In this document: positions 2,651-60,805 of the stretch, piece after piece
Numbering within the stretch: position 1 is the stretch's first letter
How the letters are laid out: every line of letters begins with the position of its first letter
From: Dyadobacter sandarakinus
GTDB lineage: Bacteria > Bacteroidota > Bacteroidia > Cytophagales > Spirosomataceae
Assembly (NCBI RefSeq): GCF_016894445.1
Contig: NZ_CP056775.1
Location: 2,792,001 to 2,856,000, forward strand
Direction of reading: 5' to 3'
Length of the DNA stretch: 64,000 bases
Position numbers and translations under genes: made by a program
The notes under the pieces: model-generated
The model's input: only the letters and a program-made list of their open reading frames with translations
Database searches by the model: none
Told to the model about the DNA's origin: nothing

Positions 2651-2964
2651 GTAGGTCTGTGAGGCTTGTAAAAAGTGATTCAGATACGCAGGATCGTAAT
2701 CCCGTTACCTGTGCTTTAACTCTCAGATAATGCCATGCCCGGATCCTTGTTTTGAAGCAGATTAACACAAAAAATTCAGGATAAAAGTTTTCAGCCGGTT
2801 TGCGGTTACGATGGTTAAATGACTTAAACCTTTGTTGGTCAGTTCTTCTGGTATGCATGTCCGGCACAGGTTCCCGTGGAAAATGGCAAGCATTGCGTGG
2901 ATTTTGTCAAGTCTCAGGCCGCCCGGATCAGGAACTTTGTGCTAACAAGAAAACAAGATCAGCA
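2651..2964. other. Divergent intergenic region
   Basis: Separates the divergently transcribed metal transporter and SDR genes, so promoters for both must lie here. The SDR frame stays open upstream to 2800, but that extension (hydrophilic, no family resemblance) is unlikely to be translated. No strong repeat or RNA structure was seen. Confidence 0.5.
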
Positions 2965-3780
2965 ATGAAAAAGACAGTGTTAGTAACAGGTGCATCCTCA
3001 GGTATCGGCCGGCAGACGGCCAGGTTGTTCCGGCAAAATGGGTGGAATGTGATAGCCAGCATGCGTAACCCTGAAAACGAGACGGAATTGAATGCATTGG
3101 AAAATGTATGGGTGAGCAGACTGGATGTTACAGACCAGGCAAGCATCGACCGGACTATTTCGGAAGGGATAGCCCGCTTCGGCACGATTGACGCGCTCGT
3201 GAATAGCGCGGGTTATGGCTTGTTCGGTGCATTCGAATCCATTGACCGCCCGCATTTTCAACAGCAATTCGATGTCAATGTTTTTGGACTGATGGAGATG
3301 GTACGGGCAGTGCTACCCGTTTTTCGTGCGCAAAAAACCGGGGTGATTATCAATATCTCGTCCTACGGCGGCCAGGTGGCTTTACCATTTGCTACCGCCT
3401 ATGCCGCCAGCAAATTTGCGGTGGAAGGATTTTCGGAGTCACTTTCCCATGAGCTTTATCCCCTGGGCATTACCGTCAAGATTGTCGAGCCGGGCAGCAT
3501 TGCCACCAATTTCCGTAATTCCATGCAGTTCGTTCCCACCCAGATCGACGACTACTCCCCTGTCGTGTCCTCATTCTTTTCGCGATCAGCAACGCCGACC
3601 GCTCACCTGCAAAAAGCCACGGAAGAGCAGGTTGCACAAACGATCTATCTTGCAGCCACAGACGGTAAGCAGCAGTTGCGGTACGTAATTGGCGACGATG
3701 CACAGTTTTACATTGACCAAAAGTACAAGCAGACAGACGAGGCTTTTGTGACTGCAATCCGCGAATATTTTGTAAACTGA
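2965..3780 (+). CDS. Short-chain dehydrogenase/reductase (SDR)
   Basis: A 271-residue classical SDR. It has the NAD(P)-binding TGASSGIG motif at 8-15, NSAG at 80-83, and the catalytic triad S132/S133, Y146 and K150 (YAASK). R34 after the second strand (SMRNP) suggests NADPH preference. The ATG at 2965 is chosen because the Rossmann motif then begins at residue 8, as in the family; the longer frame to 2800 adds 55 unrelated residues. An AraC regulator follows after 34 nt in the same direction, probably in the same operon. The same SDR-AraC pair recurs at 61706-63483, and the two SDRs share long stretches (MRNPE, ESE/ENE, VKIVEPG.IAT). Substrate unknown; AraC-linked SDRs of this kind often act on small carbonyl compounds. 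Confidence 0.9.
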   Translation: MKKTVLVTGASSGIGRQTARLFRQNGWNVIASMRNPENETELNALENVWVSRLDVTDQASIDRTISEGIARFGTIDALVNSAGYGLFGAFESIDRPHFQQQFDVNVFGLMEMVRAVLPVFRAQKTGVIINISSYGGQVALPFATAYAASKFAVEGFSESLSHELYPLGITVKIVEPGSIATNFRNSMQFVPTQIDDYSPVVSSFFSRSATPTAHLQKATEEQVAQTIYLAATDGKQQLRYVIGDDAQFYIDQKYKQTDEAFVTAIREYFVN

Positions 3781-3814
3781 GGCGATTCCAAATCACCCTC
3801 CTACCATTTCTGAC

Positions 3815-4723
3815 ATGCAAAATCAGATCATTGACATCCGCTCGATCGCCCAGTTCAATGCACTGTACGACGCACCGGCACCCCGGCATCCGCTGATTAC
3901 GGTAATTGATCTGGCGGCTTACGGGATTGGAAGCGAACAAAGGGAAGCCAGCTACCGGCTGGACCTGTACACCATGTACTTCAAGGAGACGGGCGGAAGC
4001 ATGAAATATGGCAGGGCAAACTACGATTTTACCGAAGGCTCCGTGATGTTTACAGCGCCTGGGCAGGTGATAACACCCGGTCCGGCAGGCCCAGCCGGAT
4101 CGGGCTGGGGTTTGTTTTTCCATAGCGATCTGGTCCATCCTTCGCCCCTCGGCCGGAAAATGGCTGATTATTCTTTCTTTCAATACCAGGCGAATGAGGC
4201 TTTACATGTTTCCGAAGAAGAGCGTAGAACACTGGAAGCATGCCTGGGAAATATCAGCAAGGAATATGCGCAGCACATCGACAAACATACGGCTGTATTG
4301 ATCCGCAGCAACCTGGAACTGCTGCTCAACTACTGCGCACGCTTTTACGACAGGCAGTTTTACACCAGGGAAAAGGTGAATGCGGATATTGTCCAGCAGT
4401 TCGAAGCCTTGCTGGATGATTACTTCGGGCAGGACCACCTGATCGAAACCAGCCTGCCCGGGGTGGGCTATTTTGCAGGCCGGCTGAATTTGTCCCCGAA
4501 TTACCTCACCGACCTGCTGCATCGTTTTACCGGCAAGGGTACTTTGGACCACATTCATGCCCATGTTATAGACCGGGCCAAAAACCTGCTTTGGGGTAGT
4601 GCCAAGCCGGTGAGCGAGATTGCCTACGAGCTGGGATTTACTTATCCTTCGCAATTCACGCGTTTATTTAAAAACAAAACTGGACAGTCCCCAAGCGACT
4701 TCCGCACCCGGGGCCTAGCCTGA
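3815..4723 (+). CDS. AraC-family transcriptional regulator
   Basis: A 302-residue regulator. Residues 1-190 form the sensor, with the pattern HPLITVIDL, then MKYGRANYDFTEG, then FFHSDL, which is shared with the AraC proteins at 21545 and 62572. The last 100 residues carry the two helix-turn-helix motifs of AraC, ending in EIAYELGFTYPSQFTRLFK and TGQSPSDFR. The stretch LNLSPNYLTDLLHRFTGKG is the first HTH. It lies 34 nt downstream of an SDR gene and probably controls it, since this pairing is repeated elsewhere in the window with a different SDR copy. The inducer is unknown; the cupin-like N-terminal half suggests a small-molecule ligand. Confidence 0.93.
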   Translation: MQNQIIDIRSIAQFNALYDAPAPRHPLITVIDLAAYGIGSEQREASYRLDLYTMYFKETGGSMKYGRANYDFTEGSVMFTAPGQVITPGPAGPAGSGWGLFFHSDLVHPSPLGRKMADYSFFQYQANEALHVSEEERRTLEACLGNISKEYAQHIDKHTAVLIRSNLELLLNYCARFYDRQFYTREKVNADIVQQFEALLDDYFGQDHLIETSLPGVGYFAGRLNLSPNYLTDLLHRFTGKGTLDHIHAHVIDRAKNLLWGSAKPVSEIAYELGFTYPSQFTRLFKNKTGQSPSDFRTRGLA

Positions 4724-5158
4724 AAATTAATGTCCGCAGGCTGAAAAATTGTTTGTAAATGCGTTTTGTAATAGAATCTTAAATCCATTGCTTCGATATC
4801 AGCCGGAAGCCTGTACCCTGCTCTTTAACATAATTAAAGCCGGGAATTTGAAATGAGGACCAGCAATCAGCAAGCGCTCCCGAGCGGCCATGATTAAAGC
4901 AGCCGATCTCATTCAACGCAAAGTTTATCCGGTAATGCCCCCGATGGTTAAATATAGTCTGACACCGGCCAGATAAGATTTAAATGAAGCACTCTCTGAA
5001 TTGTTTGAATGGTCAGTAAAGAAGGCTGCTTCGGAAAAAAGCGGCTGATTCAGGTGGATTTACGTAGACTGACACCTGTTTTATGAATACGAATGAAGGT
5101 ACTTTTTTAACTTAGTAACTCCGGTGCTTTTCTTTCTAATTACAATAAGCTCAGCCAA
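4724..5158. other. Intergenic region, no gene seen
   Basis: Lies between the convergent AraC gene and the small membrane-protein gene. Two short similar stretches, TAGTCTGACACCGG (about 4956-4969) and TAGACTGACACCTG (about 5066-5079), could be remnants of a repeat, but I cannot identify an element. No clear terminator hairpin or RNA gene was found. Confidence 0.4.
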
Positions 5159-23953: not shown

Positions 23954-26563
23954 ATGAAAACACTTGTGCCTTATTTAATTCTCTTCATGTTTTCCGCCGC
24001 CATTTCCGGAAAACTTCTTGCTCAGCCAGCAATCCAGTGGGACCGGACAATCGGTGGTAGCGGTAATGATTTTTTGTATGCCGCGGTCCGGACTCCGGAT
24101 GGAGGTTACCTTCTTGGTGGTAGTTCCGATTCAAATATCAGTGGGGAAAAATCCGAAAATTCAAATGGCTCTAAGATCTGGCTTGTTAAGACCAATTCCA
24201 CCGGCATAAAAGAGTGGGATAAAACAATTGGCATTGGAGATACAGGTATAGGGTTACGAAAGTTGTTACTCACCAGCGATGGCGGCTATCTGCTGGGAGG
24301 CGTAATAACAGACGATGATGTAAATGTGGTTATCAAAATTGATAAAAACGGGGTGAGACAGTGGCTCAGGCGTTACGCTCGCGGGAAGACTACAGATTTC
24401 GAAGCAATGGAAAAGGCCCCTGACGGCGGCTACATACTGGGGTTTACTTCCCTGCTGGATGAATCACAAAGCCAGGGACCTATCAAGGGATATGACTACT
24501 GGATCGTAAAAATAGACGTCAATGGCAGAACACAGTGGGAGAAGGTATACGGCGGTGCAGGCTCAGACCAACTGGAATCTCTTCAGGCAACGTCAGATAA
24601 GGGATACATTGTTGCGGGTGCCTCTAATTCGGGCAAGGGTGGCGATAAGTCAGACCCGGCAAAAGGCTATGGAGATTTCTGGATTTTAAAGCTTGATCCG
24701 TCTGGTAACAAGCAATGGGATAAAACCATAGGTGGACCGGGAGGAGATGGGCATGCACAAATAAGCCAGACTCCTGACGGGGGCTATATAGTGGGCGGGA
24801 TCACAAGTGGTACTGCTGGCGGGGATAAATCTGAAAACTCCAATGGTGCTGACTACTGGGCTGTAAAGCTGTCTGCAACCGGACAAGTGCAATGGGACCA
24901 GGACCTTTCGGGCAAAGATTACACGGAAGGAGCTGACGGCGAATCGTTCTCGGTGATTATTCAAACTGCTGATGGAGGGTATCTGATCGGTGGGACGTCC
25001 GATTCGGCAGCTGGTATCGATAAATCGGAGGAAGGAAAGGATTTTGAATCCATTGATTTATGGGTCGTCAAACTTGCTGCTGACGGCACGAAGGAATGGG
25101 ACAAAACGGTAGGAAGCGGTGATTGGAATCATTTGCAGTCCATCGTACAGGCACCCGACGGCGGTTATTTATTAGCAACCTCATCGGAAAATGGCATTCA
25201 TGGAGACAAAACGCAGGATTCAAGAGGGGGGTCAGACTTCTGGATTATCAAACTCGCTCCCGAAAATGTTCCGTCCCCTCAGACTTTGGTCCGTATCAAT
25301 GCCGGCGGACCCGATTTCACTACTGCTACTAAAAAGCTTTTTATCGCGGATCAATATTATTCTGACGCATTCAATGTTACCAGCTCCATTCCATCCGGCG
25401 ACATTCTTAATACGACCAATGATGTGCTTTACCGCACCGCCCGCAATTCACCATATTGTTTTTACGAGATTCCGGTCAAAAATATCCAGGTAAATGTCAC
25501 CCTGCATTTTGCTGAAACATATTACGGGACACCCGGCAAAGGAGGCGGTGCAGGCAGCAGGCGGTTTAATGTCGATATAGAGGGAAAGCGCGTACTGACC
25601 AACTACGACATCTTTGCCGCAGCGGGCGGAGCCATGCGTGCTGTTCAGATTACGATCCCTGTGACGGTTGCGGATGGCATACTGGACATTAACTTTGGAA
25701 CCGGAGCGGCCGGCCAGCCCAGCATTTGTGCGATTGAGGTCGTTTCCACAAATTATACTTTGGGTCCTCTTGCTGATGCTTATGTGCGGGATGGAAATTT
25801 CAGTACGACCAACTTCAATGGTTCAAGTCTGGATATCAAAAGCACATCGGGTGATCCTTCGGCCAACCGGAGTTCCTACCTGAAATTCAAAGTACCGCAG
25901 GCACTGACGATTGCTGCTGCCAAACTGCGGATTTACGGCCATAATCATGAAGACACGAAGAGTATTTCCGTACATGCATACGGGGTTAACAACGATAGCT
26001 GGACAGAAGGCAGCATTGTCAAAAACAATGCACCCGCCGCATCGACGGCTTCATTGGGCTATGCATCCGTAAACAATGTATACAAGTACTATGAAATTGA
26101 TGTGACCAGCTACGTCAAAGCACAGCAACAATCCGGCGACGAGATCGTAAGCCTGCTGCTGCGCGACCCCAGCAATCGCAATACCAGAATGGTCTTCAAT
26201 AGTAAAGAGGCAATTTCCAAACCTCCGCAATTGATCATCCAGAACGTTGCCAATAGTACTGCAAGGCTAAGTCAGGAAGAAGCGACATTTGAGCAGCAGG
26301 AGAAAGAGCTGTCGGTAGTGTTTCCAAATCCGGCAACCGACGAATTTACGGTCTTAATTTCCAGGCAGCATGCCGGAAACATCTCCTTTCAGCTTGTTAA
26401 CAACGCAGGAGAAAGTAATCCCATCCAGGCAGCTGAGCGTGTCAGGCCGGGAGAGAAAGTACGGTTTGATGTTGATAAAATTCCGGTTAACGCAGGTATT
26501 TACTTATTAAAAGTTGACTCGGAAGGTTTTTCAGAGGTAGTGAAACTGCTTATTGCGAAGTAA
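23954..26563 (+). CDS. Propeller-malectin-CBM96 T9SS surface protein
   Basis: An 869-residue modular protein. The signal peptide ends at LLAQ (residue 23). Residues 24-435 hold about seven propeller repeats of the SBBP kind, each with a core WDKTIGG...PDGGYLLGG...DYWIVKL. A malectin-like domain (about 440-595) begins TLVRINAGGPDFTTATKK and includes VTLHFAETYYGTPG. A CBM96-like beta-sandwich (about 600-765) reads LADAYVRDGNFSTTNF, KLRIYGHNH and YYEIDVTSYV. The T9SS sorting tail contains VVFPNPATDEFTV and GIYLLKVDSEGF. It has the same layout as the gene at 34548 but lies on the opposite strand and lacks the shared upstream box. It is likely a surface adhesin or glycan-binding protein; no enzymatic residues were seen. 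Confidence 0.9.
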   Translation: MKTLVPYLILFMFSAAISGKLLAQPAIQWDRTIGGSGNDFLYAAVRTPDGGYLLGGSSDSNISGEKSENSNGSKIWLVKTNSTGIKEWDKTIGIGDTGIGLRKLLLTSDGGYLLGGVITDDDVNVVIKIDKNGVRQWLRRYARGKTTDFEAMEKAPDGGYILGFTSLLDESQSQGPIKGYDYWIVKIDVNGRTQWEKVYGGAGSDQLESLQATSDKGYIVAGASNSGKGGDKSDPAKGYGDFWILKLDPSGNKQWDKTIGGPGGDGHAQISQTPDGGYIVGGITSGTAGGDKSENSNGADYWAVKLSATGQVQWDQDLSGKDYTEGADGESFSVIIQTADGGYLIGGTSDSAAGIDKSEEGKDFESIDLWVVKLAADGTKEWDKTVGSGDWNHLQSIVQAPDGGYLLATSSENGIHGDKTQDSRGGSDFWIIKLAPENVPSPQTLVRINAGGPDFTTATKKLFIADQYYSDAFNVTSSIPSGDILNTTNDVLYRTARNSPYCFYEIPVKNIQVNVTLHFAETYYGTPGKGGGAGSRRFNVDIEGKRVLTNYDIFAAAGGAMRAVQITIPVTVADGILDINFGTGAAGQPSICAIEVVSTNYTLGPLADAYVRDGNFSTTNFNGSSLDIKSTSGDPSANRSSYLKFKVPQALTIAAAKLRIYGHNHEDTKSISVHAYGVNNDSWTEGSIVKNNAPAASTASLGYASVNNVYKYYEIDVTSYVKAQQQSGDEIVSLLLRDPSNRNTRMVFNSKEAISKPPQLIIQNVANSTARLSQEEATFEQQEKELSVVFPNPATDEFTVLISRQHAGNISFQLVNNAGESNPIQAAERVRPGEKVRFDVDKIPVNAGIYLLKVDSEGFSEVVKLLIAK

Positions 26564-49755: not shown

Positions 49756-50145
49756 AAAAAGTTGAGCGTTGATTGAAGTGGATAATAAGTCAGCGGTAAT
49801 CGGTAAAGTGCAGAAGTGCTGCGTGTGCGCTATAAAAGCAATAGAAACGAAGCCGTGTATACGTTTGCTGATAGCCGTGAAATGCCTGCCGAAAAGTAAA
49901 TGCCTCACTTACTTCAAAAGGCTGACCGGCAGCGCATTATACATATATGAACAGGATTACATTCACGAAGCTGGGGAGGATATGTAGCTGTTGCAAACGT
50001 CCGGATCGCAGCTCCCCTCTCACACGTCCTCTATACATCAAAAACGGGTTAATGGTCAACAGATTCCACCAGCATGTTGTGGAATTATATTTTCTGATTT
50101 CACGAAAGATTAAAATAAAATACTGTTATTTTGAAACCCTGCATC
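49756..50145. other. Divergent regulatory region of locus 2 and the array
   Basis: About 390 bp between the large surface-protein gene (minus) and the ECF sigma gene (plus). Just before the sigma gene lies an A/T-rich stretch ending TTATTTTG, near the Bacteroidota -7 form TAnnTTTG but one base off. No other structure was seen. Confidence 0.45.
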
Positions 50146-50769
50146 ATGCCTGAATTTGTGCCTGAAAAGAATTCTGATATCGACAACTCGATTTTAATGC
50201 TTTCATCAAGGGCAGATGAAGCCGCTTTTACAACCCTTTTTGATCGTTACAAGCATAAGCTTTATGGCTATCTGCTCAGCCTCACCGGCTCAGAAATGCT
50301 TGCGGAGGATATTGTGCAGGATGTTTTTATCAAAATTTGGACAGACCGGGAGAGCTTGGCCGATGTCAGAAACTTTGATAGTTACCTGTTCCGGATGTCG
50401 AAGAACCATGCGATCAACCACTTTCGCAGGATGTCGCAGGAGGCACTGATTATTTCCGAAGTTTTCAAGGCAGACCCTTCACAAAATCTGACCGACGACT
50501 CCATTGCATTGCAGGAAACCGAGCGCCTGCTGGCAGCGGCTATCGAGAAATTGCCCGCACAGCAAAGAGCGGTTTACGAGCTGAGCCGCCATCAGGGGCA
50601 CAGCCATGAAGAAATCGCGGATCTGTTGAAAATTTCTGTTCATACGGTGCGCAACCACATGGTGCAGGCGATGGCTACGATCCGCACCCAGCTGAGAAGC
50701 CAGGCTGACGTGTACCTGCTGGCCGCCCTGGCCATTTCCCTCACCAAGTGTCCCTGTTTTTCAGCCTGA
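50146..50769 (+). CDS. ECF RNA polymerase sigma factor
   Basis: A 207-residue ECF sigma factor of the Bacteroidota FecI-like type. Region 2 spans about residues 25-90 (FTTLFDRYKHKLYGYLLSL, EDIVQDVFIKIWTDRESL). Region 4 is at about 135-190 (LPAQQRAVYELSRHQGHSHE, EIADLLKISVHTVRNHM). The ATG at 50146 is preferred to a TTG five codons earlier. It is followed after 233 nt by its FecR anti-sigma factor and then by SusC with an STN domain, the complete set for trans-envelope signalling. Sugar arrival at SusC relieves FecR inhibition, and the sigma factor then transcribes the locus. The last residues (KCPCFSA) are hydrophobic with two cysteines. Confidence 0.95.
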   Translation: MPEFVPEKNSDIDNSILMLSSRADEAAFTTLFDRYKHKLYGYLLSLTGSEMLAEDIVQDVFIKIWTDRESLADVRNFDSYLFRMSKNHAINHFRRMSQEALIISEVFKADPSQNLTDDSIALQETERLLAAAIEKLPAQQRAVYELSRHQGHSHEEIADLLKISVHTVRNHMVQAMATIRTQLRSQADVYLLAALAISLTKCPCFSA

Positions 50770-51002
50770 GGTATACTTTTTTCTAGGTTGGAAGTAATTT
50801 TTGATCTGCATAAATGCCCTTTGCAGCCTCCGGGCCCAGGTTTTGAAATTAATTCATCTTTTTTCGTATCTCCACTAGTTCCTGCGCGCTTCCCATTTGT
50901 CTTTTATTTGGTAGTTGATCATTCAGGCTTTATAATCCTTTGCCATTTACCAGCAAAAGCATCAGACACACAAGTTATTTTTCGAGAACGAAAGGATTAT
51001 CT

Positions 51003-52193
51003 ATGCATACGGACCGAATACAATACCTAACCAGCAAATTATTTGCGGGTACATGCAGCCCGGAGGAAAAGCTGGAACTGGCCGAATGGGTCCGGCAGCA
51101 TCCCGATCATGAGCTGGGCGGGGTGCTGGAAAACGAGTGGAGCGAATTTAAGTCGGACATCAGAATGCCGGAGCATATGTCCGGACGTATCCTGGGCAAC
51201 ATCTTTGATCAGGACAACAAGGATACGATCGTGGAAGAACCGGCAGAAGACCGTTCGGTGCGGCACTTGTGGCTCAGGATGGCAGCCGCCGCCGTGCTGA
51301 TCCTGTCACTGGGGATTTACTGGTGGTCGGGAAAAGACCAGCGCCCGATTGCCCGGTTGCAGGCTCCGGTATTAAAGGAAGCTGACCTTCCTCCCGGCGG
51401 CAATAAGGCAACACTAACGCTCGGCGACGGTTCAAGCATTGTCCTCGACGGGGCCGAAAACGGCAGTCTGGCCAGCCAGGGAGGCACCAATGTCATCAAA
51501 TCCAGAAAAGGAGAGCTGGTTTACAGCGCTTCCGGGGAAGGCAGGATGGCCGCGGTCTTCAATACCGTCGCTACTCCAAAAGGCGGTCAATATCATATTG
51601 TACTACCTGACGGATCCAAAGCCTGGCTCAATGCGGTATCCTCCCTCCGGTTTCCCACTGCTTTCACAGGTAAAGAAAGAAAGGTGGAAATTACCGGGGA
51701 AGTTTATTTCGAGGTAGCGCATAATGCAAAAATGCCCTTTGTCGTCGCTACTTCCCAGGCGCAGGTGACTGTTTTGGGGACGCATTTTAACGTGATGGCC
51801 TACCCGGATGAAAATGTATTGAAGACTACGCTGCTGGAAGGCTCGGTAAGGGTAAGCAATCATGCAGGCAAGTCGGCCATGCTGATCCCCGGGCAACAGG
51901 CCCGGATCAAAACCGTGTCCGGCCAGATCGGGATTGCGGATGACATTGATATTGAAAAGGAAATGGCCTGGAAAAACGGGTACTTCCAGTTTCAGGATGA
52001 CAACCTTGAACAGGTCATGCGGCAGATATCCCGCTGGTACGATGTGGAGGTTGTTTATGAAGGTACACCGGGAAAGGAAACGTTTACAGGCCGGCTACCC
52101 AGAAATGCAAACGTGTCAAAAGTCTTTAAAATATTATCGCTCAGCGGTGTGAAATGCCGCATTGAAGGAAAGTCCATTATCGTAAACCCATAA
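51003..52193 (+). CDS. FecR-family anti-sigma factor
   Basis: A 396-residue single-pass membrane protein from ATG 51003. Residues 1-88 are the cytoplasmic sigma-binding part (YLTSKLFAGTCSPEEKLEL). The transmembrane helix is at about 91-107 (MAAAAVLILSLGIYWWSG). A periplasmic FecR domain follows (VATPKGGQYHIVLPDGSKAW, RKVEITGEVYFEVAHN). The C-terminal DUF4974-type secretin-like lobe carries FQFQDDNLEQVMRQISRWYD. That lobe contacts the STN domain of the SusC encoded next. It is separated from the SusC gene by 154 nt containing a hairpin. The upstream extension of the frame to 50940 is rejected because family members begin with a short helix like HTDRIQYL. Confidence 0.94.
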   Translation: MHTDRIQYLTSKLFAGTCSPEEKLELAEWVRQHPDHELGGVLENEWSEFKSDIRMPEHMSGRILGNIFDQDNKDTIVEEPAEDRSVRHLWLRMAAAAVLILSLGIYWWSGKDQRPIARLQAPVLKEADLPPGGNKATLTLGDGSSIVLDGAENGSLASQGGTNVIKSRKGELVYSASGEGRMAAVFNTVATPKGGQYHIVLPDGSKAWLNAVSSLRFPTAFTGKERKVEITGEVYFEVAHNAKMPFVVATSQAQVTVLGTHFNVMAYPDENVLKTTLLEGSVRVSNHAGKSAMLIPGQQARIKTVSGQIGIADDIDIEKEMAWKNGYFQFQDDNLEQVMRQISRWYDVEVVYEGTPGKETFTGRLPRNANVSKVFKILSLSGVKCRIEGKSIIVNP

Positions 52194-52347: not shown

Positions 52348-55300
52348 ATGAATCACGACCATTTTATCCAAAAGGGGTCCTGGCTGTCGTATATAGGTGA
52401 CAGTTACCGCAAGCCTCTTGCCACCAAAACTTTTTTGGTAATGAAACTGATCTTTATTTTCTCCCTCGTTTTTTGTCTGCAGGCAAGCGCTTTCAGCTCG
52501 GCACAGAAGATTACACTGGTTGCCCAGAATGCACCCCTGCCGAAGGTGCTGAAAGAAATCGAGCGTCAGAGTGGCTATTCGTTCTGGTACAAAACCCAGC
52601 TGCTGACCAATACGAACAAGGTTTCCGTGGCCATCAAAGACGCCAACCTGGAAGATGCGCTGGCCAAGGTGCTCAGGAATCAGCCGGTGGACTATTCCAT
52701 TGTGGATGAAACGGTGGTATTGCAGGCAAAAAAGGAGCCTAAGATCCTGGCGCCTGCCAAAGAACTTCTGGAACTTATCAAAGGCCAGGTACTGGGAGCC
52801 GACGGAAAACCACTGGTAGGCGTGACCGTTATTGTGAAAGCGACCAAAATGGGGACAACCACCGACCTGGATGGCAATTTCTCTGTGAATGCTGCGGATA
52901 CGGATGTGCTGGTGTTTTCCTACATCGGTTTTGATACAAAGGAAGTAGCTGTAGGCAAACAAAGCACCATCTCCGTGAGCCTCGCAGAAAGCAATACAAC
53001 CCTGAACGAAGTGGCGGTCGTAGGTTACGGTCAGCAGTCGCGCAAAAACCTGACGAGTGCCGTGAGCACGGTCAAAAGAGAAGAGCTGAATAATGGTGCT
53101 ATCACCGACGTCGGACAGTTGTTGCAGGGAAAAGTACCGGGACTCAATATCACCGCCAGCGGCGACCCGAACAGGCCGGCAGCAGTGGTGATGCGTGGTG
53201 CGTCGACCATCAACAGTGCGCAGGGACCATTTTACGTGATCGACGGTGTGCCCGGTGCTGATATTGCGACCATCGCGCCCGATGATATTGCTTCCATCGA
53301 CGTGCTGAAAGATGCGGCAGCAACCGCTATTTATGGTAACCGCGCTGCCAATGGGGTGATCATGGTCACTACCAAAAAAGGAAAGGCAGGCACGATGCAG
53401 ATTTCGTACAATGGTTATGTGGGGATCGAGAAAATTTCGAACAAACTCGACATGATGACAGGTGACCAGCTGAGGGCGTTTCTGGAAAAAAACGGTGTTG
53501 GATTTACGCCGGCGGACGACAAAGGTGCCAATACAGACTGGCAGTCATCGATCCAGAAGAAGACAGCGATTTCTACCAACCACAATCTTTCTTTCAATGG
53601 TGGTACCGAGCACACGACTTACGCGGCGAGCTTGAACTATGTTAAAAAAGACGGTATCCTGCTGAACAGTGACCTGACCCGCGTCATTGGCCGCCTCTCG
53701 ATCGAGCAGCGTGCATTGAAGGATAAACTGAAATTCGGCTTCTCGGTGACCAACTCGCATAGCGATGCGAATGACATTCCTTACCGCAACACGGTGTTGC
53801 TGCAATCGGCTTCTTACCTCCCTGTTTCCCCGATCAGAAATGCAGACGGTTCTTATTTTGAAAACTTTCAGAATACGAACTACTACAATCCGGTAGCGAT
53901 GATCAACAACAGTGAGATGAATACGAAGTCAAACAATCTCATCGGAAGTTTTAAAACGCAGGTGGAGCTGCCTTTCGGGCTGACTTACAATCTGGATATT
54001 TCCTACCTGAACACCAGCACTTTGCAGGGCACGTACTACAACAAATATTTTACGAACAATTATAACAACATGTACGACAACCCCGATCCGGGCTTGGGAT
54101 TTCATGCGGTACAATCGTTCGGCAAAAACGGCCAGGCCAACAGAAGTTCGTACCAGAATACGAGCAAAATCCTGGAAACCTACCTGACCTGGAACAAGGA
54201 ATTCGGAGATCATTCCATTAATGCGGTAGTGGGTTACTCATGGCAGAACAACCGCGTGGGTCAGGGTTTTCAGGTGACGACCAGCAATTTCCCGGTTGAT
54301 AACGTTACCTACAACAACCTCGCACTGAGCAATCCTTACGGTACGGCCGGCTACCAGATCGGCTTTGGGCCCGATGGTGTTTACCAGGAAGTACAGCTGA
54401 TCTCGGATTTTGCCAGATTTAATTATAACTACAAAAGCAAATATTTGCTGCAAGGCTCGGTGAGAAGGGACGGCAGCTCGGTATTTGGCGCCAATAACCA
54501 GTGGGGCTACTTTCCGTCCGTGGGTGCCGCGTGGCGGATCAGCCAGGAAGGTTTCATGGAAAACCAGCATATATTCAGCGACCTGAAACTGAGAGCAAGT
54601 TATGGGGTTACTGGTAATGCGAGTGGATTCAATGCCTACACGGCCCAATTCATCTCCGGTGCTTTGGGTACCTACTATTACAATGGGGCACTCACAGGCG
54701 CTTATGGTCCTACCAAATCCGAAAACCCAGATTTGAAATGGGAGAAAACGGCCACGACCAATATCGGTCTCGACTTTGCTGTGCTGGGTAACCGTATCAA
54801 CGGCTCGCTGGAAGTATATGATTAAAAACACCACGGGCATGATCTATTCCTACACCGTGAACCCGATCCTGGTACCGTCCGGCAGCATTGTAGCCAATGG
54901 CGGAAGCGTGAACAACAAGGGTATTGAATTCAATGTAAATGCGAAAATCGTTGACCGAACCAATCTGAGCTGGACGAGCGGAATCAACCTGGCGCACAAC
55001 AAAAACGAGATCACCAGCCTCACCAACCCATTATTTGCGGGCGGCGACTCAGTATTGCTCTCGCGTCCGGAGGGCGGCGGGCAATCCGGAAGGTCGCTTC
55101 AGATTCTGAAAGCGGGCAGGCCACTGGGACAATACTTCTCATTCAAATATGCCGGAAAAAATGAAGCGGGTGTATCCCAGTTTTATGCCGCGGACGGCAG
55201 TCTGACGACCACGCCGGTAGTAGGAAAAGACTATTACTACCTGGGCAGCGCACAGCCCAAGCTGATGCTGGGCTGGACCAACAGCCTGCGGTACAAAAAC

Positions 55301-55705
55301 TTTGATCTGAATGTCTTCATCAGAGGGGTATTCGGAAACAAGGTTTTCAATGCAACCCGGGCCGATCTGTTCAGACCTAGTACTGCGCAGTATTCCAATA
55401 TCCTGGTGGATGCGGCTGACGAGCCGGCCAGCGATTTCAATGCTTACGTTTACTCGTCGCGTTTCCTCGAAAGCGGAAGTTTCGTACGGTTTGACAATGC
55501 TACGCTGGGCTATAATTTCAGGAAGCTGGGTCCATTTGTCAAAAACCTGAGGGTTTATACTTCCGTCAATAATTTGTTTGTCATCACCAAATACAAGGGT
55601 GTTGACCCGGAAGTGAATCAGGGCGGGATTGCGCCGGGGGTTGATTATAACAACTTCTATCCGAAGACGCGCACGTTCCTGTTTGGCCTGAATATCTCCA
55701 TCTAA
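52348..55705 (+). pseudogene. SusC-type TonB-dependent transporter with STN domain, single frameshift (locus 2)
   Basis: Full span is 3358 nt, one more than 1119 codons. The first frame (52348-54825) has a signal region, an STN secretin-like domain (about 50-130; ITLVAQNAPLPKVLKEIERQ), a carboxypeptidase-like sandwich (IKGQVLGADGKPLVGVTVIV), a TonB-box/plug entry (LNEVAVVGYGQQSRKNL) and most of the barrel. It stops at GSLEVYD-TAA. The rest of the barrel continues in the next frame from KNTTGMIYSY to FLFGLNISI (55705). Removing one T at 54822 or 54823 (GATTAAAAAC) restores EVYDKNTTG. The break falls beside an A-run, so sequence error is plausible. Everything else in the operon looks intact. 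Confidence 0.9.
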
Positions 55706-55720
55706 CATCGAAGCAGCATC

Positions 55721-57337
55721 ATGAAGATTTCATATATAAAACTACTTTTCTCAACACTGGCGGCAGCGACCCTGTTCTCCTGCCACGACCTGGATGTGCC
55801 GGTTACGACCGCACTGACGACCGACGTTTTCCCGAGCACGGATGAACAATTCATTTCCGCAGCCGGGCCTGTTTATGTAGCATTAAGAGGCAATTTCGGA
55901 GCGGAAGCATTTCAGATTGCGTCATACAGCACCGATGAGGGCATTATGCCGGCCCGGGGCGGAAACTGGTACGACGGTGGACAAAACCAGACATTGCACC
56001 TGCACACCTGGACGGTAGACAACGGCTATGTAAATGGTCACTGGACCTGGCTATCGACCATTATAGGCGTGGCCAACCAGTCTATCTCCATTCTGGAAGG
56101 AAAAATGCCGGAAGGTGCAGCGAAACAGACGATGCTTTCGGAGATCAGAACGGTGCGTGCATTCGCCTATTTTATGATGATGGATGCCTTCGGAAATGTG
56201 CCGATTTATACAGAATACGGTGATTTTGCACCTAAAACCAACACGCCGAGGACAGAGGTTTTCAATTTTATCGAAAAGGAAATCCTGGAAGCAATGCCAA
56301 ACCTGAACGAAGTATCGGGCGTGTCACAGTATGGAAGGCCCAACAAATGGGCGGCTTACGCGCTGCTTGCGAAAATGTACCTCAATGCGGAATATTACAC
56401 CGGGACGAAGCGCTACGACGACTGCATTGCGGCCTGCGATAAAATCACCGCCTCCGGATTGTACAGCCTCGAACCGAAAAGCAGCTACCTGAACATGTTT
56501 TATCCGACGAACGGACCGCAGATGAAGGAATTCATTTTTGCGATTCCTTACGACCCGGCGCAGACGAACACATTCCCGTTCCGGAGCGTGAACAACCGCT
56601 CGCGGTACGATATTCCGAGAAGCGAGACGAAGAAGTTCAGCCTGCCGTTTACGCCCGCCGGTTCGGCTTCCACATTGCCGGAATACTATGCAAATTTCAA
56701 TGATCCAAACGATGTCAGGAATGGTCAGTGGCTCAAAGGACCGCAATTCATGAACGACGGCGTGACGCCCGTGACCGTCACCACAACCAACATTGGTTAC
56801 GACCAGTTTTATACCGGCAGCAACCCGTCGGCGCCTTACACTTACCAGGTGAACATTACGCCGGAAGTGGTTTTGCGCCAGAGTGTATCCGCATTCGACG
56901 CCGGAAATGACGAGATCGCGTGGCACATGGGCTATCGCAATATGAAGTTTTACCCGGATGCCAGTTCCCTGAACAGAAACCAGAACAACGACATCCCGGT
57001 TTTCAGGTATTCGGATGTTGTGCTGATGAAAGCTGAGGCCATCCTTAGAGGCGGCACGCCGACATTGGGGAGCACTGCACTTTCGCTGGTCAATGACCTA
57101 AGAGCACAGCGCACCACGTCGCCTGCATTGACCAGCGTGAATCTGGACTTCATCTATGCCGAAAGAGCACGCGAGTTTGCGTGGGAAGGTTGGAGAAGAA
57201 ACGATATGATCCGTTTTGGAAAATTCGAGGGCAAATGGGGTTACAAAACCGATTCGGATGTGAACAAACGCATTTTCCCGATCCCAAGAGTAGCCTTGCA
57301 GTTGAATCCGGCACTGGTACAAAACCCCGGTTATTGA
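55721..57337 (+). CDS. SusD/RagB-type glycan-binding lipoprotein (locus 2)
   Basis: A 538-residue surface lipoprotein. The signal MKISYIKLLFSTLAAATLFSC carries the lipobox cysteine at 21, followed by HDLDVPVTTALTTDVFPS. The SusD helical core appears as EIRTVRAFAYFMMMDAFGNVP and the C-terminal motif as YAERAREFAWEGWRRNDMI. It lies 15 nt after the SusC frame and forms the lid over that transporter. The binding-site residues differ from the SusD of locus 1, consistent with another ligand; an alpha-GlcN/GlcNAc-containing glycan is inferred from the downstream enzymes. A terminator-like hairpin lies 15 nt after the stop. Confidence 0.95.
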   Translation: MKISYIKLLFSTLAAATLFSCHDLDVPVTTALTTDVFPSTDEQFISAAGPVYVALRGNFGAEAFQIASYSTDEGIMPARGGNWYDGGQNQTLHLHTWTVDNGYVNGHWTWLSTIIGVANQSISILEGKMPEGAAKQTMLSEIRTVRAFAYFMMMDAFGNVPIYTEYGDFAPKTNTPRTEVFNFIEKEILEAMPNLNEVSGVSQYGRPNKWAAYALLAKMYLNAEYYTGTKRYDDCIAACDKITASGLYSLEPKSSYLNMFYPTNGPQMKEFIFAIPYDPAQTNTFPFRSVNNRSRYDIPRSETKKFSLPFTPAGSASTLPEYYANFNDPNDVRNGQWLKGPQFMNDGVTPVTVTTTNIGYDQFYTGSNPSAPYTYQVNITPEVVLRQSVSAFDAGNDEIAWHMGYRNMKFYPDASSLNRNQNNDIPVFRYSDVVLMKAEAILRGGTPTLGSTALSLVNDLRAQRTTSPALTSVNLDFIYAERAREFAWEGWRRNDMIRFGKFEGKWGYKTDSDVNKRIFPIPRVALQLNPALVQNPGY

Positions 57338-57399: not shown

Positions 57400-59646
57400 A
57401 TGAACGACATCCGAACAGGTTGTTTTTCTCTTCGTATTTTGAAGAGGGTCAACCCCTTGTGCCTGATCATTTGCTTCTTTTTTACAGGGATAAATGTTAA
57501 AGCGCAAACCATCGCGACCTCCGGCAAAGCCCTGATTGCACGGGTAGTCCCATCCCATGCCTCTCATTTCGAGGTGGAGCAGCTGACTTCCAAATCCGGC
57601 AAAGACGAATTTGAAATTGAAAGTAAAGGCAGCAAAATCGTGCTGCGCGGATCGAGCGGCGTGGCGGTGGCTTCTGCGCTTTATTATTATCTGACAAACT
57701 ATGCGCACTGCCAGATCACCTGGAATGGGACCAACTTATCGCTTCCGGCAAAACTGCCTGCCCTACCCTCGAAAATCACCAAATCGACGGTTTACAATTA
57801 TCGTTACAATCTGAACTACTGCACGTTTAATTACACCATGAGCTGGTGGGACTGGGAGCGCTGGCAAAAAGAAATTGACTGGATGGCCATGCACGGGATC
57901 AATATGCCGCTGGCGATCACCGGCGAGGAATACACCTGGCTGGAAGTGTATAAAGACATGGGTTTCAGTGAAAATGACCTGAAAGATTTTTTCAGCGGCC
58001 CGGCTTATTTCGGCTGGTTCTGGATGGGAAATCTGGACGGCTGGGGTGGCCCGCTACCGCTGAGCTGGATGGAAAGCCACAAGACTTTGCAGCAGCAAAT
58101 TGTGAAAAGAGAGCGTGAGCTGGGCATGAAACCCGTTTTGCCGGCTTTTACGGGGCACGTTCCGGCTGCATTCAAGAAGAAATTTCCCAATGCACAGTTG
58201 AAGGCGACTAACTGGACCAATGGATTTGGAAATACTTACATTCTCGATTCACAGGACCCGCTTTTTGCAGAAATCGGCAAGAAATTCCTGGACAAGCAGA
58301 CCCAGCTTTACGGCACCGACCATTTATATTCGGCCGATACATTTAACGAAAACGAACCACCCACCGACGATCCCGAATATTTATCAAAACTGAGCGAAAG
58401 GATCTACGACGGCATGCGCCAGGCGGACCCGAATGCAGTTTGGGTGATGCAGGGCTGGTTGTTTTACAGCGACCGGAAATTCTGGAAAGCCCCGCAGATT
58501 GAAGCACTTTTGAAAGCAGTACCCGACGATAAAATGATCCTGCTCGACCTGGCAGCCGAAATCGAGCCGGTCTGGAAGCGGACAGGTGCATTTTACGGTA
58601 AACCGTGGATCTGGAACATGCTGAACAATTTTGGGGGTAATGTCAATCTGTTCGGCAGAATGGAAGGTGTCGCGGCAGGACCTGCCCAGGCCTGGAACGA
58701 TCCCGGTAAAAAACGATTGGAAGGCATCGGCCTGACGATGGAAGCCATCGAGCAAAACCCGGTCATTTATGAATTGATGATGGACCACACCTGGCGGACT
58801 ACTCCTATCGACCTCGATCAATGGTTGAAAAAATACGCAAGAAACAGGTATGGGAAAAACGATTCGGATCTTAACCTGGCCTGGCAGATTTTAAGAAAAA
58901 CGGTTTACAATGGAAAGGAAATCCGCGACGGTGCAGAGTCAATTGTGACGGGCAGGCCAACCCTGGATTCTTCCACGATCTGGACCAGAACGAAATTGAA
59001 TTATGCGCCGGAAAAACTTTTGCCGGCTTGGGATCTGCTAGTCAAGGCTGCAAATAAGGGTGTAAAAACAGACGGATTTAGCTACGATCTGGTGGATGTT
59101 TCCAGACAGATTCTGGCCAATTATGCATTGGTTGTTCAGAAAAAATGGGTAACTGCATTCAGAAAGGGAGACCAAATTGGTTTCAAAAAGCACAGCCGCG
59201 AGTTTATTGACTTGATCGACGATATGGATGCGCTGCTGGCAACCAGAAAAGATTTCATGCTCGGACCCTGGATCGCAGATGCCAGAAAATGGGGCACGAA
59301 TGCGCAGGAAAAGGCACTTTACGAACAAAATGCCCGCGACCTGATCACGCTGTGGGGTGATGCCGACAGTCCGCTGCACGAATATTCCAACCGGCAATGG
59401 AGCGGCCTGCTCAATGATTTTTACAGGGTACGCTGGGAAAAATTCTTCGCCATGCTCGACGGCAGCCTGGCAAATCACACGAAGGCGGATTTCAAAACCT
59501 TTGAAAAAAGCATTGCACAATGGGAGTGGCAGTGGGTCAATGAGCAAAAAGCTTTCCCTACGAAACCGGCAGGCAACAGCATTGAGGCGGCCCTGAAACT
59601 ACATCGGAAATATGCTCAGCAAATCAGCCATGACTACAAAAACTAA
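57400..59646 (+). CDS. GH89 alpha-N-acetylglucosaminidase
   Basis: A 748-residue exo-enzyme homologous to human NAGLU. It releases terminal alpha-linked GlcNAc. Residues 1-36 include a signal peptide (CLIICFFFTGINVKAQ). The N-terminal domain spans about 37-125, and the (beta/alpha)8 barrel starts at YNYRYNLNYCTFNYTMSWWD. The two catalytic glutamates are visible: E317 in DTFNENEPP, which aligns with human E316 in DTFNEMQPP, and E387 in LDLAAEIEPVW, which aligns with E446. The helical C-terminal domain ends at the stop. Its last 17 nt overlap the next gene, an HGSNAT-like acetyltransferase. It is predicted to be periplasmic and acts on oligosaccharides imported by SusC/SusD. Confidence 0.95.
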   Translation: MNDIRTGCFSLRILKRVNPLCLIICFFFTGINVKAQTIATSGKALIARVVPSHASHFEVEQLTSKSGKDEFEIESKGSKIVLRGSSGVAVASALYYYLTNYAHCQITWNGTNLSLPAKLPALPSKITKSTVYNYRYNLNYCTFNYTMSWWDWERWQKEIDWMAMHGINMPLAITGEEYTWLEVYKDMGFSENDLKDFFSGPAYFGWFWMGNLDGWGGPLPLSWMESHKTLQQQIVKRERELGMKPVLPAFTGHVPAAFKKKFPNAQLKATNWTNGFGNTYILDSQDPLFAEIGKKFLDKQTQLYGTDHLYSADTFNENEPPTDDPEYLSKLSERIYDGMRQADPNAVWVMQGWLFYSDRKFWKAPQIEALLKAVPDDKMILLDLAAEIEPVWKRTGAFYGKPWIWNMLNNFGGNVNLFGRMEGVAAGPAQAWNDPGKKRLEGIGLTMEAIEQNPVIYELMMDHTWRTTPIDLDQWLKKYARNRYGKNDSDLNLAWQILRKTVYNGKEIRDGAESIVTGRPTLDSSTIWTRTKLNYAPEKLLPAWDLLVKAANKGVKTDGFSYDLVDVSRQILANYALVVQKKWVTAFRKGDQIGFKKHSREFIDLIDDMDALLATRKDFMLGPWIADARKWGTNAQEKALYEQNARDLITLWGDADSPLHEYSNRQWSGLLNDFYRVRWEKFFAMLDGSLANHTKADFKTFEKSIAQWEWQWVNEQKAFPTKPAGNSIEAALKLHRKYAQQISHDYKN

Positions 59647-60805
59647 CCGCTCCTCCCCTGCGGACATGCAGGTGAATACGTCGCAACGGCTTGTGTCACT
59701 GGATGCGCTGCGTGGCTTTGACATGTTCTGGATTATCGGCGGTGAGCACCTGATCCATGCGCTGGCTGAACTGACGGGCTGGCCGGTAATGATATGGCTC
59801 TCCGCCCAGATGCACCATACCGTCTGGAATGGCTGCACTTTTTATGACATGATTTTCCCCCTGTTTCTATTTATTTCGGGTGTGTCCCTCCCCTACTCGC
59901 TGGGCAAAAAAATGGGGCTGTCGGGTGTGGATTATGCCTATCAGTTACCGGCGACGGTCAAGCGTCAGATACTTAAAGCCAATCTGAGGAGGATGCTGAT
60001 CCTGGTTTTCCTTGGCATGGTGGTCAATGGTTTGTTCAAATTCAATGGGTACGAAAACACCCGGTTCGCCAGCGTGCTGGGCAGGATCGGGATCGCGTGG
60101 TTTTTTGCCGGCCTGATCCACCTGCATTTCAGTTTGCGCAAGCAGCTTGTGTGGTTCTTTGTGATCCTGACCGGCTACTGGCTGGCGATGTCTTTTATTC
60201 CGGTGCCCGGATTCGGGGCCGGGGATATGTCAATGGAGGGTTCCCTGGAATCTTACATTGACAGACTGCTGCTGCCAGGCAGGCTGCATAGCAAGGTCCA
60301 CGATCCGGAGGGCATCCTTTCTACGATTCCGGCGGTGGCCACGGGACTTCTGGGCATTTTTACAGGTGTGTTTGTGCGATCAAAGACCTTTGACCCATTA
60401 AAGAGTGTCTATTTTATGCTGATGGCTGCACTGGCACTCATGGTGGCAGGGCTTCTGTGGGATGGCATTTTCCCGATCAACAAGCGCCTCTGGACCAGCT
60501 CGTTTGTGTTGTTTGTCGGCGGGTGGAGCCTGGCTTTTTTTGCCGTTTTTTACCTCATCATCGACGTGGCAGGCTGGAAAAGATGGACATTCCCTTTCAT
60601 CCTGATCGGAACAAACTCGATCCTCATCTACCTGGCTGTGGAAGGTATGATAGGATTTGACCATACGGCTCAGTTCTTTTTAGGCGGGCTGATTCGGCTG
60701 GTCCCGGATCGTTTTGAAGAACTGCTTAAAATAGTGTCGGTTATTCTGGTCGAGCTGCTGGGCCTTTATTTTCTTTATAAAAACAAGATTTTTTTGAAAG
60801 TGTAG
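59630..60805 (+). CDS. HGSNAT-like membrane acetyltransferase (DUF5009 type)
   Basis: A 391-residue integral membrane protein with about ten hydrophobic helices. It opens with the family signature RLVSLDALRGFDMFWII. The loop motif HTVWNGCTFYDMIFPLFLF at about 63-81 matches the active-site region of human heparan-alpha-glucosaminide N-acetyltransferase (HxxWNGxTxxDxxFPxF, catalytic His269). The equivalent residue here is H63. HGSNAT moves acetyl from cytosolic acetyl-CoA across the membrane onto terminal glucosamine. The ATG at 59630 overlaps GH89 by 17 nt; ATG 59612 would add six residues. Overlap implies translational coupling, and in animals HGSNAT makes the substrate of NAGLU, so the pair probably acts consecutively here too. 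Confidence 0.88.
   Translation: MTTKTNRSSPADMQVNTSQRLVSLDALRGFDMFWIIGGEHLIHALAELTGWPVMIWLSAQMHHTVWNGCTFYDMIFPLFLFISGVSLPYSLGKKMGLSGVDYAYQLPATVKRQILKANLRRMLILVFLGMVVNGLFKFNGYENTRFASVLGRIGIAWFFAGLIHLHFSLRKQLVWFFVILTGYWLAMSFIPVPGFGAGDMSMEGSLESYIDRLLLPGRLHSKVHDPEGILSTIPAVATGLLGIFTGVFVRSKTFDPLKSVYFMLMAALALMVAGLLWDGIFPINKRLWTSSFVLFVGGWSLAFFAVFYLIIDVAGWKRWTFPFILIGTNSILIYLAVEGMIGFDHTAQFFLGGLIRLVPDRFEELLKIVSVILVELLGLYFLYKNKIFLKV

Follow-up and report, generated by a model that had tools for sequence, protein, structure and literature searches.

A GH89 α-N-acetylglucosaminidase gene paired with a predicted HGSNAT/NagX-type membrane acetyltransferase in Bacteroidota loci with inositol-linked glycans as a candidate substrate

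The terminal glucosamine of heparan sulfate needs to be acetylated before glycosidases can act on it (PMC11199644), and in animal lysosomes these tasks fall to HGSNAT and NAGLU. In bacteria, NagX has been proposed, from fitness data in five bacteria, to acetylate free glucosamine (GlcN) with cytosolic acetyl-CoA (PMC9007349); therefore, the idea of using acetyl-CoA across the membrane is not new. The description of the TmAT superfamily places DUF5009 with HGSNAT and reports that no DUF5009 function has been experimentally confirmed (PMC12423673). A bacterial GH89 enzyme cuts N-acetylglucosamine (GlcNAc) α1-4-linked to glucuronic acid (GlcA), and bacterial GH89 can act on heparosan oligosaccharides (PMC8225759). 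Here, we analyzed a stretch of 64,000 nucleotides from Dyadobacter sandarakinus (the window; contig NZ_CP056775.1, positions 2,792,001 to 2,856,000, in a genome of one 6.07 Mb contig), which carries a small polysaccharide-utilization operon composed of sigma/FecR, SusC, SusD, GH89 and NagX-type genes (Table 1). Among the matches listed from the open-licence literature, preprints aside, neither a GH89–NagX pairing nor an inositol-glycan locus of this type was found. With a probability of roughly 0.6, we consider that the GH89–NagX pair removes α-GlcN(Ac) from inositol-linked glycans, with plant glycosylinositol phosphorylceramide (GIPC) head groups as the first candidate, and glycosylphosphatidylinositol (GPI) or fungal GlcN-inositol ceramides as the next.

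The GH89 assignment of the initial annotation holds, and the gene is complete. Its product shares all domains and both catalytic glutamates with human NAGLU, CpGH89 and Bt3590/Bt0438, but differs from them in having a predicted N-acetyltransferase as its operon partner. It aligns with human NAGLU (4xwh) at an E-value of 6e-166, and with CpGH89 as well. The initial annotation had named E317 and E387 as the catalytic pair. E317 stands as the acid/base residue, whereas the nucleophile is instead E448, located in the GLTMEA motif and equivalent to E446 of human NAGLU and E601 of CpGH89 (equivalent residue numbers in human NAGLU, HGSNAT and CpGH89 were counted by hand along the printed alignments). 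Both E317 and E448 are glutamates in all 116 aligned GH89 rows. E387 was rejected as the second catalytic residue, as its position holds Glu in 99 rows and Asp in the other 17. Since the N-terminus resembles a signal peptide, as judged by eye, the enzyme is probably periplasmic.

The second open reading frame had been read as HGSNAT-like on the basis of its HTVWNG motif, and the alignments agree: the protein matches human HGSNAT from the PDB (E 2.9e-17), with H63 of the motif aligned to the human H297. The NCBIfam NagX model (NF046061, "transmembrane glucosamine N-acetyltransferase") covers residues 19–391 at E 3e-110, although the score of 368.7 bits lies below the curated cut-off of 480, and a search across 194 genomes of the order gave no score that high. 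At an E-value threshold of 0.001, the protein matches no Pfam family, neither DUF5009 nor HGSNAT_cat. An AlphaFold2 (AF2) model built with 29 aligned rows has a mean predicted local distance difference test score (pLDDT) of 89.7. Its VIA-align superposition on human HGSNAT (8vli_B) yields a Z-score of 37.8 and a root-mean-square deviation of 3.1 over 345 residues with 28% identity, and the next structural match, GWT1, scores 20.9. The model thus predicts the 10-transmembrane acyltransferase fold of the TmAT superfamily. The motifs listed for this superfamily (PMC12423673) are present as D25/R28 (DxxR), F79/G84 (FxxxxG) and Y334 (the tyrosine of the bent helix).

In human HGSNAT, catalysis and binding involve the H297–D307 dyad, R345, R372, E499 and Y611; R372 and E499 bind GlcN, and N286 contacts the acetyl carbonyl (PMC11199644). 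The window protein has H63, D73, R121, R145, E227 and Y334 at the six former positions. The active-site histidine, which the initial annotation had left to a proper alignment, is present in all 72 GH89-linked proteins; D73, R121 and the GlcN-binding R145 and E227 are likewise kept in 72/72, as is Y334 apart from one gap. Across all 102 NagX-type rows, H63 and D73 are invariant. The human enzyme and the window protein therefore share the fold, the dyad and the equivalents of R372 and E499, and each stands beside a NAGLU-type glycosidase. In contrast to the human protein of 663 residues, the window protein of 391 residues lacks the luminal N-terminal domain, with the structural match beginning at human residues 263–267; it also carries E39 in place of N286, presumably resides in the bacterial inner membrane, and probably acts on another glycan. 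Compared with NagX, it has the near whole-length match, the catalytic histidine and the chemistry proposed there, but it falls below the cut-off, belongs to a clade of its own fixed beside GH89, and would accept a glycan end rather than free GlcN.

The pairing recurs far more often than chance would allow, in line with the link drawn in the initial annotation. We examined 80 loci from named genomes, namely the best 80 of 559 confirmed GH89 relatives, which lean towards close kin of the window GH89. A NagX-type gene is found in 61 of these, and in 55 it lies immediately adjacent on the same strand, against a rough expectation of 0.1 adjacent pair per 80 loci (3–5 NagX-type genes in the host genome, set against some 5,000 genes assumed from its size). 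A weak NagX-like match two genes from GH89 (L169, 49 bits) was excluded from the counts. The adjacent gene is downstream of GH89 in 36 loci and upstream in 19, and the gap is at most 22 nt in 35 of the 36 (overlaps included) and at most 25 nt in 13 of the 19. The exact overlaps are uncertain because the gene starts were assigned mechanically. In the window, the 17-nt overlap of the initial annotation holds with the ATG at 59630; the first in-frame ATG, at 59612, would give 35 nt. The two genes may be translationally coupled, as the initial annotation proposed. The nearest named GH89 loci, among those listed, come from Dyadobacter.

Broader samples gave a similar picture. At the level of the order, GH89 matched in 6 of the 194 genomes, five over the cut-off, while NagX-type genes occurred in 92; the two are adjacent in four of the five, twice in reversed order. 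Among 395 evenly drawn Bacteroidota genomes (the phylum sample), GH89 is present in 26. For these, 29 stretches with 31 non-window GH89 genes were fetched, and NagX lies within two genes of GH89 in seven stretches. In eight genomes of one genus (g98), NagX is located approximately 20–30 kb from GH89, apparently in one locus; the interval was covered whole or within 0.3 kb in five of the eight, and 5–7 kb is uncovered in G214, G505 and G524. Accordingly, 16 of the 26 GH89 genomes (the window, seven close pairs and the eight g98 genomes) have NagX in the locus.

In a tree of 102 NagX-type proteins (the duplicate rows L138, L142 and L003 being omitted), the GH89-linked members form two main clades with unlinked proteins between them, and L177 stands alone on a long branch. 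The linkage label changes three times, compared with a mean of about 26 upon shuffling. Clade A, of the NagX type, comprises 55 rows including the window protein, one of which (L133) has no GH89 within its 4.1 kb, and clade B, of the HGSNAT type, comprises 17. Two separate pairings with GH89 are the simplest reading of the two main clades, although the three changes may instead reflect one gain and two losses; long branches (L016, L177, L170 and others) make the deep joins unsure. The position of human N286 was assigned by its equal spacing from the DxxR arginine and by the residue offset with which the structural alignment begins. It is Asn in 17/17 rows of clade B, whereas the 55 linked rows outside this clade have Glu in 53, Asp in one and Asn in one (L177).

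The host genome encodes further NagX copies. One (L015, 9236–10378; C1:5267792) adjoins GH109-like and glucosamine-isomerase-like genes and is among six unlinked rows with Leu at the position of E227, the site of human E499; proteins of this clade may take another acceptor. Another copy (L014, 8971–10086) follows two proton-antiporter-type membrane genes and a gene of the β-lactamase fold, and groups with copies from the same genus in the tree.

The genes surrounding the pair offer clues to its substrate. Neighbors in 85 loci were grouped by single linkage and named by Pfam from one representative per cluster, so that subfamilies may be mixed. The most frequent are GH92 (35 loci), GH28 (34), LacI (31), MIOX (30) and two clusters of metallophosphatases (17 and 7), followed by an SSF symporter (14), GH43 (13), GH115 and GH29 (7 each), GH51 (6), and GH97, GH95 and PI-PLC-C1 (5 each); FecR/sigma genes also recur. 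In some Pedobacter (L042, L060), the run reads (LacI), MIOX, SusC, SusD, phosphatase, NagX, GH89, GH28, GH92, GH51. In some Flavobacterium (L078, L081), it reads GH92, cluster 26, DUF4861, GH28, GH92, GH43, GH89, NagX, PI-PLC, GH115, phosphatase. All eight g98 genomes with GH89 have SusCD, one or two GH92, a phosphatase, an HTCS-cluster gene, MIOX, GH2, NagX, SSF and GH28 in apparently one locus, and PI-PLC is found in one of them (G386); no other g98 genome of the phylum sample has MIOX over the cut-off. In locus L197, the gene directly after GH89 (2849–4774) encodes a glucosamine-6-phosphate isomerase domain fused to a PIG-L deacetylase domain, and three g98 genomes (G214, G524 and G386) have a member of this NagB/PIG-L fusion cluster right behind their GH89 gene. 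Some of the inositol-type loci also encode a conserved 600-residue protein, cluster 26 (L197, 15339–17132; L078, 2078–3871; L205, 15675–17354), with no Pfam or NCBIfam match. Its low-confidence model (pLDDT 66.7) finds its best VIA-align partners, at Z approximately 19 and 8–10% identity, among uronate lyases or epimerases, including PL17 alginate lyases, which hints at a uronate-lyase-like protein.

Several of these neighbors are commoner in loci with NagX. Among 70 long loci, those with NagX within three genes of GH89 (53) were compared with those without (17); the p values ignore descent and multiple testing. GH28 is present in 29/53 against 1/17 (p 0.0005), GH92 in 29/53 against 2/17 (p 0.002), MIOX in 25/53 against 2/17 (p 0.01), the phosphatase in 14/53 against 0/17 (p 0.016) and SSF in 13/53 against 0/17 (p 0.03). 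SusC, SusD, FecR and LacI show no significant tie in these loci. MIOX or PI-PLC lies beside GH89 in 41 of 72 cases with NagX in the locus but in only one of 32 without, after 12 of the 116 GH89 rows were dropped (short contigs and the duplicates L163/L164) and with the eight g98 loci set by hand as having both NagX and an inositol gene. Moreover, MIOX exceeds the cut-off in 14 of the 26 GH89 genomes compared with 14 of the 369 others in the phylum sample (Fisher p 1.2e-11, descent ignored).

By the established functions of the GH92, GH51, GH43, GH2, GH97, GH115, PI-PLC and MIOX families, the sister loci hold genes of the α-mannosidase, arabinofuranosidase, galactosidase, α-glucuronidase, PI-PLC, phosphatase and MIOX types, and thus an inositol-linked glycan is the candidate substrate. 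GPI anchors carry non-acetylated GlcN on inositol. The plant GIPC head, GlcNAc(α1-4)GlcA(α1-2)-inositol-phosphate-ceramide, also exists in a free-amine GlcN form (PSL2), and longer series add mannose (Man), two galactoses (Gal) and two arabinoses (Ara) (PMC8099651). GlcN-α-inositol cores are described in fungal GIPCs (PMC4174763). The recurring enzyme types fit the plant GIPC sugars nearly one for one, with GH28 left without a clear place, and GPI and fungal substrates stay candidates since GlcN on inositol occurs there too. The initial annotation had pointed to another α-GlcN glycan, with a bacterial surface polymer as the example; the direction holds, whereas the MIOX, PI-PLC and GH115 genes of the sister loci fit an inositol-linked eukaryotic glycan better than that example.

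On this basis, a glycan fragment would enter the periplasm through SusCD. NagX would then place an acetyl group on the sugar end, after which GH89 would remove α-GlcNAc using E317 as acid/base and E448 as nucleophile; ends acetylated beforehand would go directly to GH89. More broadly, the loci may constitute an undescribed and widespread class in Bacteroidota, in soil and Bacteroides-like genomes, that strips plant GIPC heads sugar by sugar, with the HGSNAT–NAGLU pair acting on GlcN in its free-amine form, inositol being released by PI-PLC and phosphatase and then burned by MIOX, and the pair having been assembled at least twice. We regard this wider proposal as tentative, with the odds somewhat against it in its full form.

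A number of observations weigh against assigning an inositol-linked substrate to the pair, and above all to the window itself. No MIOX match was found in the window's genome by a search that was positive over the cut-off in 29 of the 194 genomes of the order, nor was a PI-PLC-C1 match by a search positive in the control genome of Caulobacter; neither gene is thus in the window locus. This locus is a minimal version in which GH89 is the sole glycosidase. Since the genome lacks both matches and the locus any other glycosidase, the substrate of the window pair is transferred from its relatives, whose substrate it would share. Its SusC is split between two frames, with the break near 54.8 kb. Among the 80 loci, 19 have no visible NagX, some of them on short contigs, and MIOX and PI-PLC are both missing beside 31 of the 72 GH89 genes that share a locus with NagX. 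When descent is considered, NagX and the inositol genes change the same way in about four of 12 pairs and never oppositely, an underpowered comparison with a median p of 0.125, while the tie to GH92 is weaker (about 2.8 the same way and 0.9 opposite). Eight of the 14 genomes with GH89 and MIOX belong to one genus, and in three of the 14 (G226, G544 and G369) MIOX lies away from GH89. In the long loci, the ties of NagX to GH115 (6/53 against 0/17, p 0.32) and PI-PLC (4/53 against 0/17, p 0.57) are not significant at these small counts, nor are those to GH43 (p 0.27) and GH51 (p 1). Clade A, with the window protein, departs from the human enzyme by its Glu at the position of N286. In addition, the window GH89 has a W528 loop that lines up with W685 of CpGH89, a residue tied to GlcNAc(α1-4)Gal (PMC8225759), so that any sub-site specificity assigned to it is tentative. 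Tryptophan occurs at this position in 96/116 GH89 rows and is missing from three printed g98 rows; human NAGLU likewise has it, with a shorter loop behind.

The two-step chemistry could also serve a related substrate ahead of plant GIPC, namely the GPI glycan (Man-GlcN-α1-6-inositol) or the fungal GlcN-α1-2-inositol ceramide, an option that we hold to be rather unlikely. The non-acetylated GlcN of GPI, the fungal cores mentioned above and the GH92, PI-PLC and MIOX types are all consistent with it, but the GH115 type in seven loci and the GH51, GH43 and GH2 types better suit a GIPC with GlcA, Ara and Gal, as does, weakly, the low-confidence uronate-lyase-like model of cluster 26. An unlikely reading departs further from glycan ends: NagX would acetylate free periplasmic GlcN for uptake by the GlcNAc route, and GH89 would simply sit in the same operon as another supplier of GlcNAc catabolism. 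The closest curated family is indeed NagX, which fitness data tie to growth on free GlcN (PMC9007349), and the Glu of clade A at the N286 position also occurs in 13 of 30 unlinked rows. Against this, the window locus holds no enzyme that releases free GlcN, the subfamily is fixed beside GH89 and distinct from the other NagX copies of the host, and a second clade, of the HGSNAT type with Asn in all 17 members, is GH89-linked as well.

That the membrane protein is instead a sugar transporter, as proposed for the distantly related TfMurT (PMC9007349), is quite improbable given the retained His–Asp dyad, acetyl-CoA-site residues and HGSNAT fold. As for heparan sulfate or heparosan, the pair equals the lysosomal one and GH89 action on heparosan oligosaccharides is on record (PMC8225759), yet MIOX and PI-PLC would have no role there. 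The initial annotation had noted the lack of a heparinase or sulfatase, and none occurs among the 20 window proteins scanned (23.9–63.5 kb) or among the representatives of the neighbor clusters, a scan that covers the more frequent neighbors; heparan sulfate was rejected as the target on the latter ground, and the animal-type substrate is the most improbable of these alternatives. Removal of α-GlcN(Ac) from inositol-linked glycans, plant GIPC heads in particular, remains our preferred reading.

The window locus follows the usual plan of SusCD polysaccharide-utilization loci, with sigma/FecR, adjacent SusC and SusD genes and a glycosidase in one run. It differs from the usual loci of this kind by its dedicated transmembrane acetyltransferase; the sister loci often add MIOX and, in a few cases, PI-PLC. 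SusC is whole (1118 residues) in three Dyadobacter relatives (L022–L024), and the break in the window may be either a real pseudogene or an assembly error. Upstream, positions 23954–49908 hold a run of large secreted proteins with type IX secretion system sorting tails, mostly on the minus strand, which form a paralogous family; six of them have malectin and CBM96 domains.

Table 1. Coordinates of the operon genes and of key codons in the window
Feature	Position	Strand	Basis
ECF (extracytoplasmic function) sigma factor (RNA polymerase sigma-70 factor, Bacteroidetes type)	50131..50769	+	TIGR02985 over cut-off, Sigma70_r2/r4_2; TTG start mechanical
FecR-like anti-sigma factor	50940..52193	+	PF04773, PF16344
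SusC-like TonB-dependent transporter, first part; frame stops early	52348..54825	+	TIGR04056 positions 3-681 of 981
SusC-like transporter, remainder in a different frame	54776..55705	+	TIGR04056 positions 680-980; start mechanical
SusD-like surface glycan-binding protein	55721..57337	+	PF07980, PF14322
GH89 α-N-acetylglucosaminidase, signal-like N-terminal segment	57400..59646	+	748 aa; Pfam domains NAGLU_N, NAGLU and NAGLU_C, each over cut-off
NagX/HGSNAT-type transmembrane N-acetyltransferase (predicted)	59630..60805	+	391 aa; NF046061 below cut-off, human HGSNAT chains, AF2 model
E317 codon, acid/base Glu of GH89	58348..58350	+	Human NAGLU and CpGH89 alignment
E448 codon, nucleophile Glu of GH89	58741..58743	+	Human NAGLU and CpGH89 alignment
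E39 codon of NagX; human HGSNAT has N286 there	59744..59746	+	DxxR Arg +11; structural-alignment offset 247
H63 codon of NagX, catalytic His (human H297)	59816..59818	+	Alignment with human HGSNAT
D73 codon of NagX, dyad Asp (human D307)	59846..59848	+	Alignment with human HGSNAT

If the preferred reading is correct, the acetylate-then-cut logic known from Sanfilippo syndrome would be a general bacterial answer to non-acetylated α-glucosamine. The bacterial proteins would then provide small, expressible models for HGSNAT, and the loci, in soil and Bacteroides-like genomes, would supply a candidate set of genes with which microbes take apart the head groups of plant GIPC.

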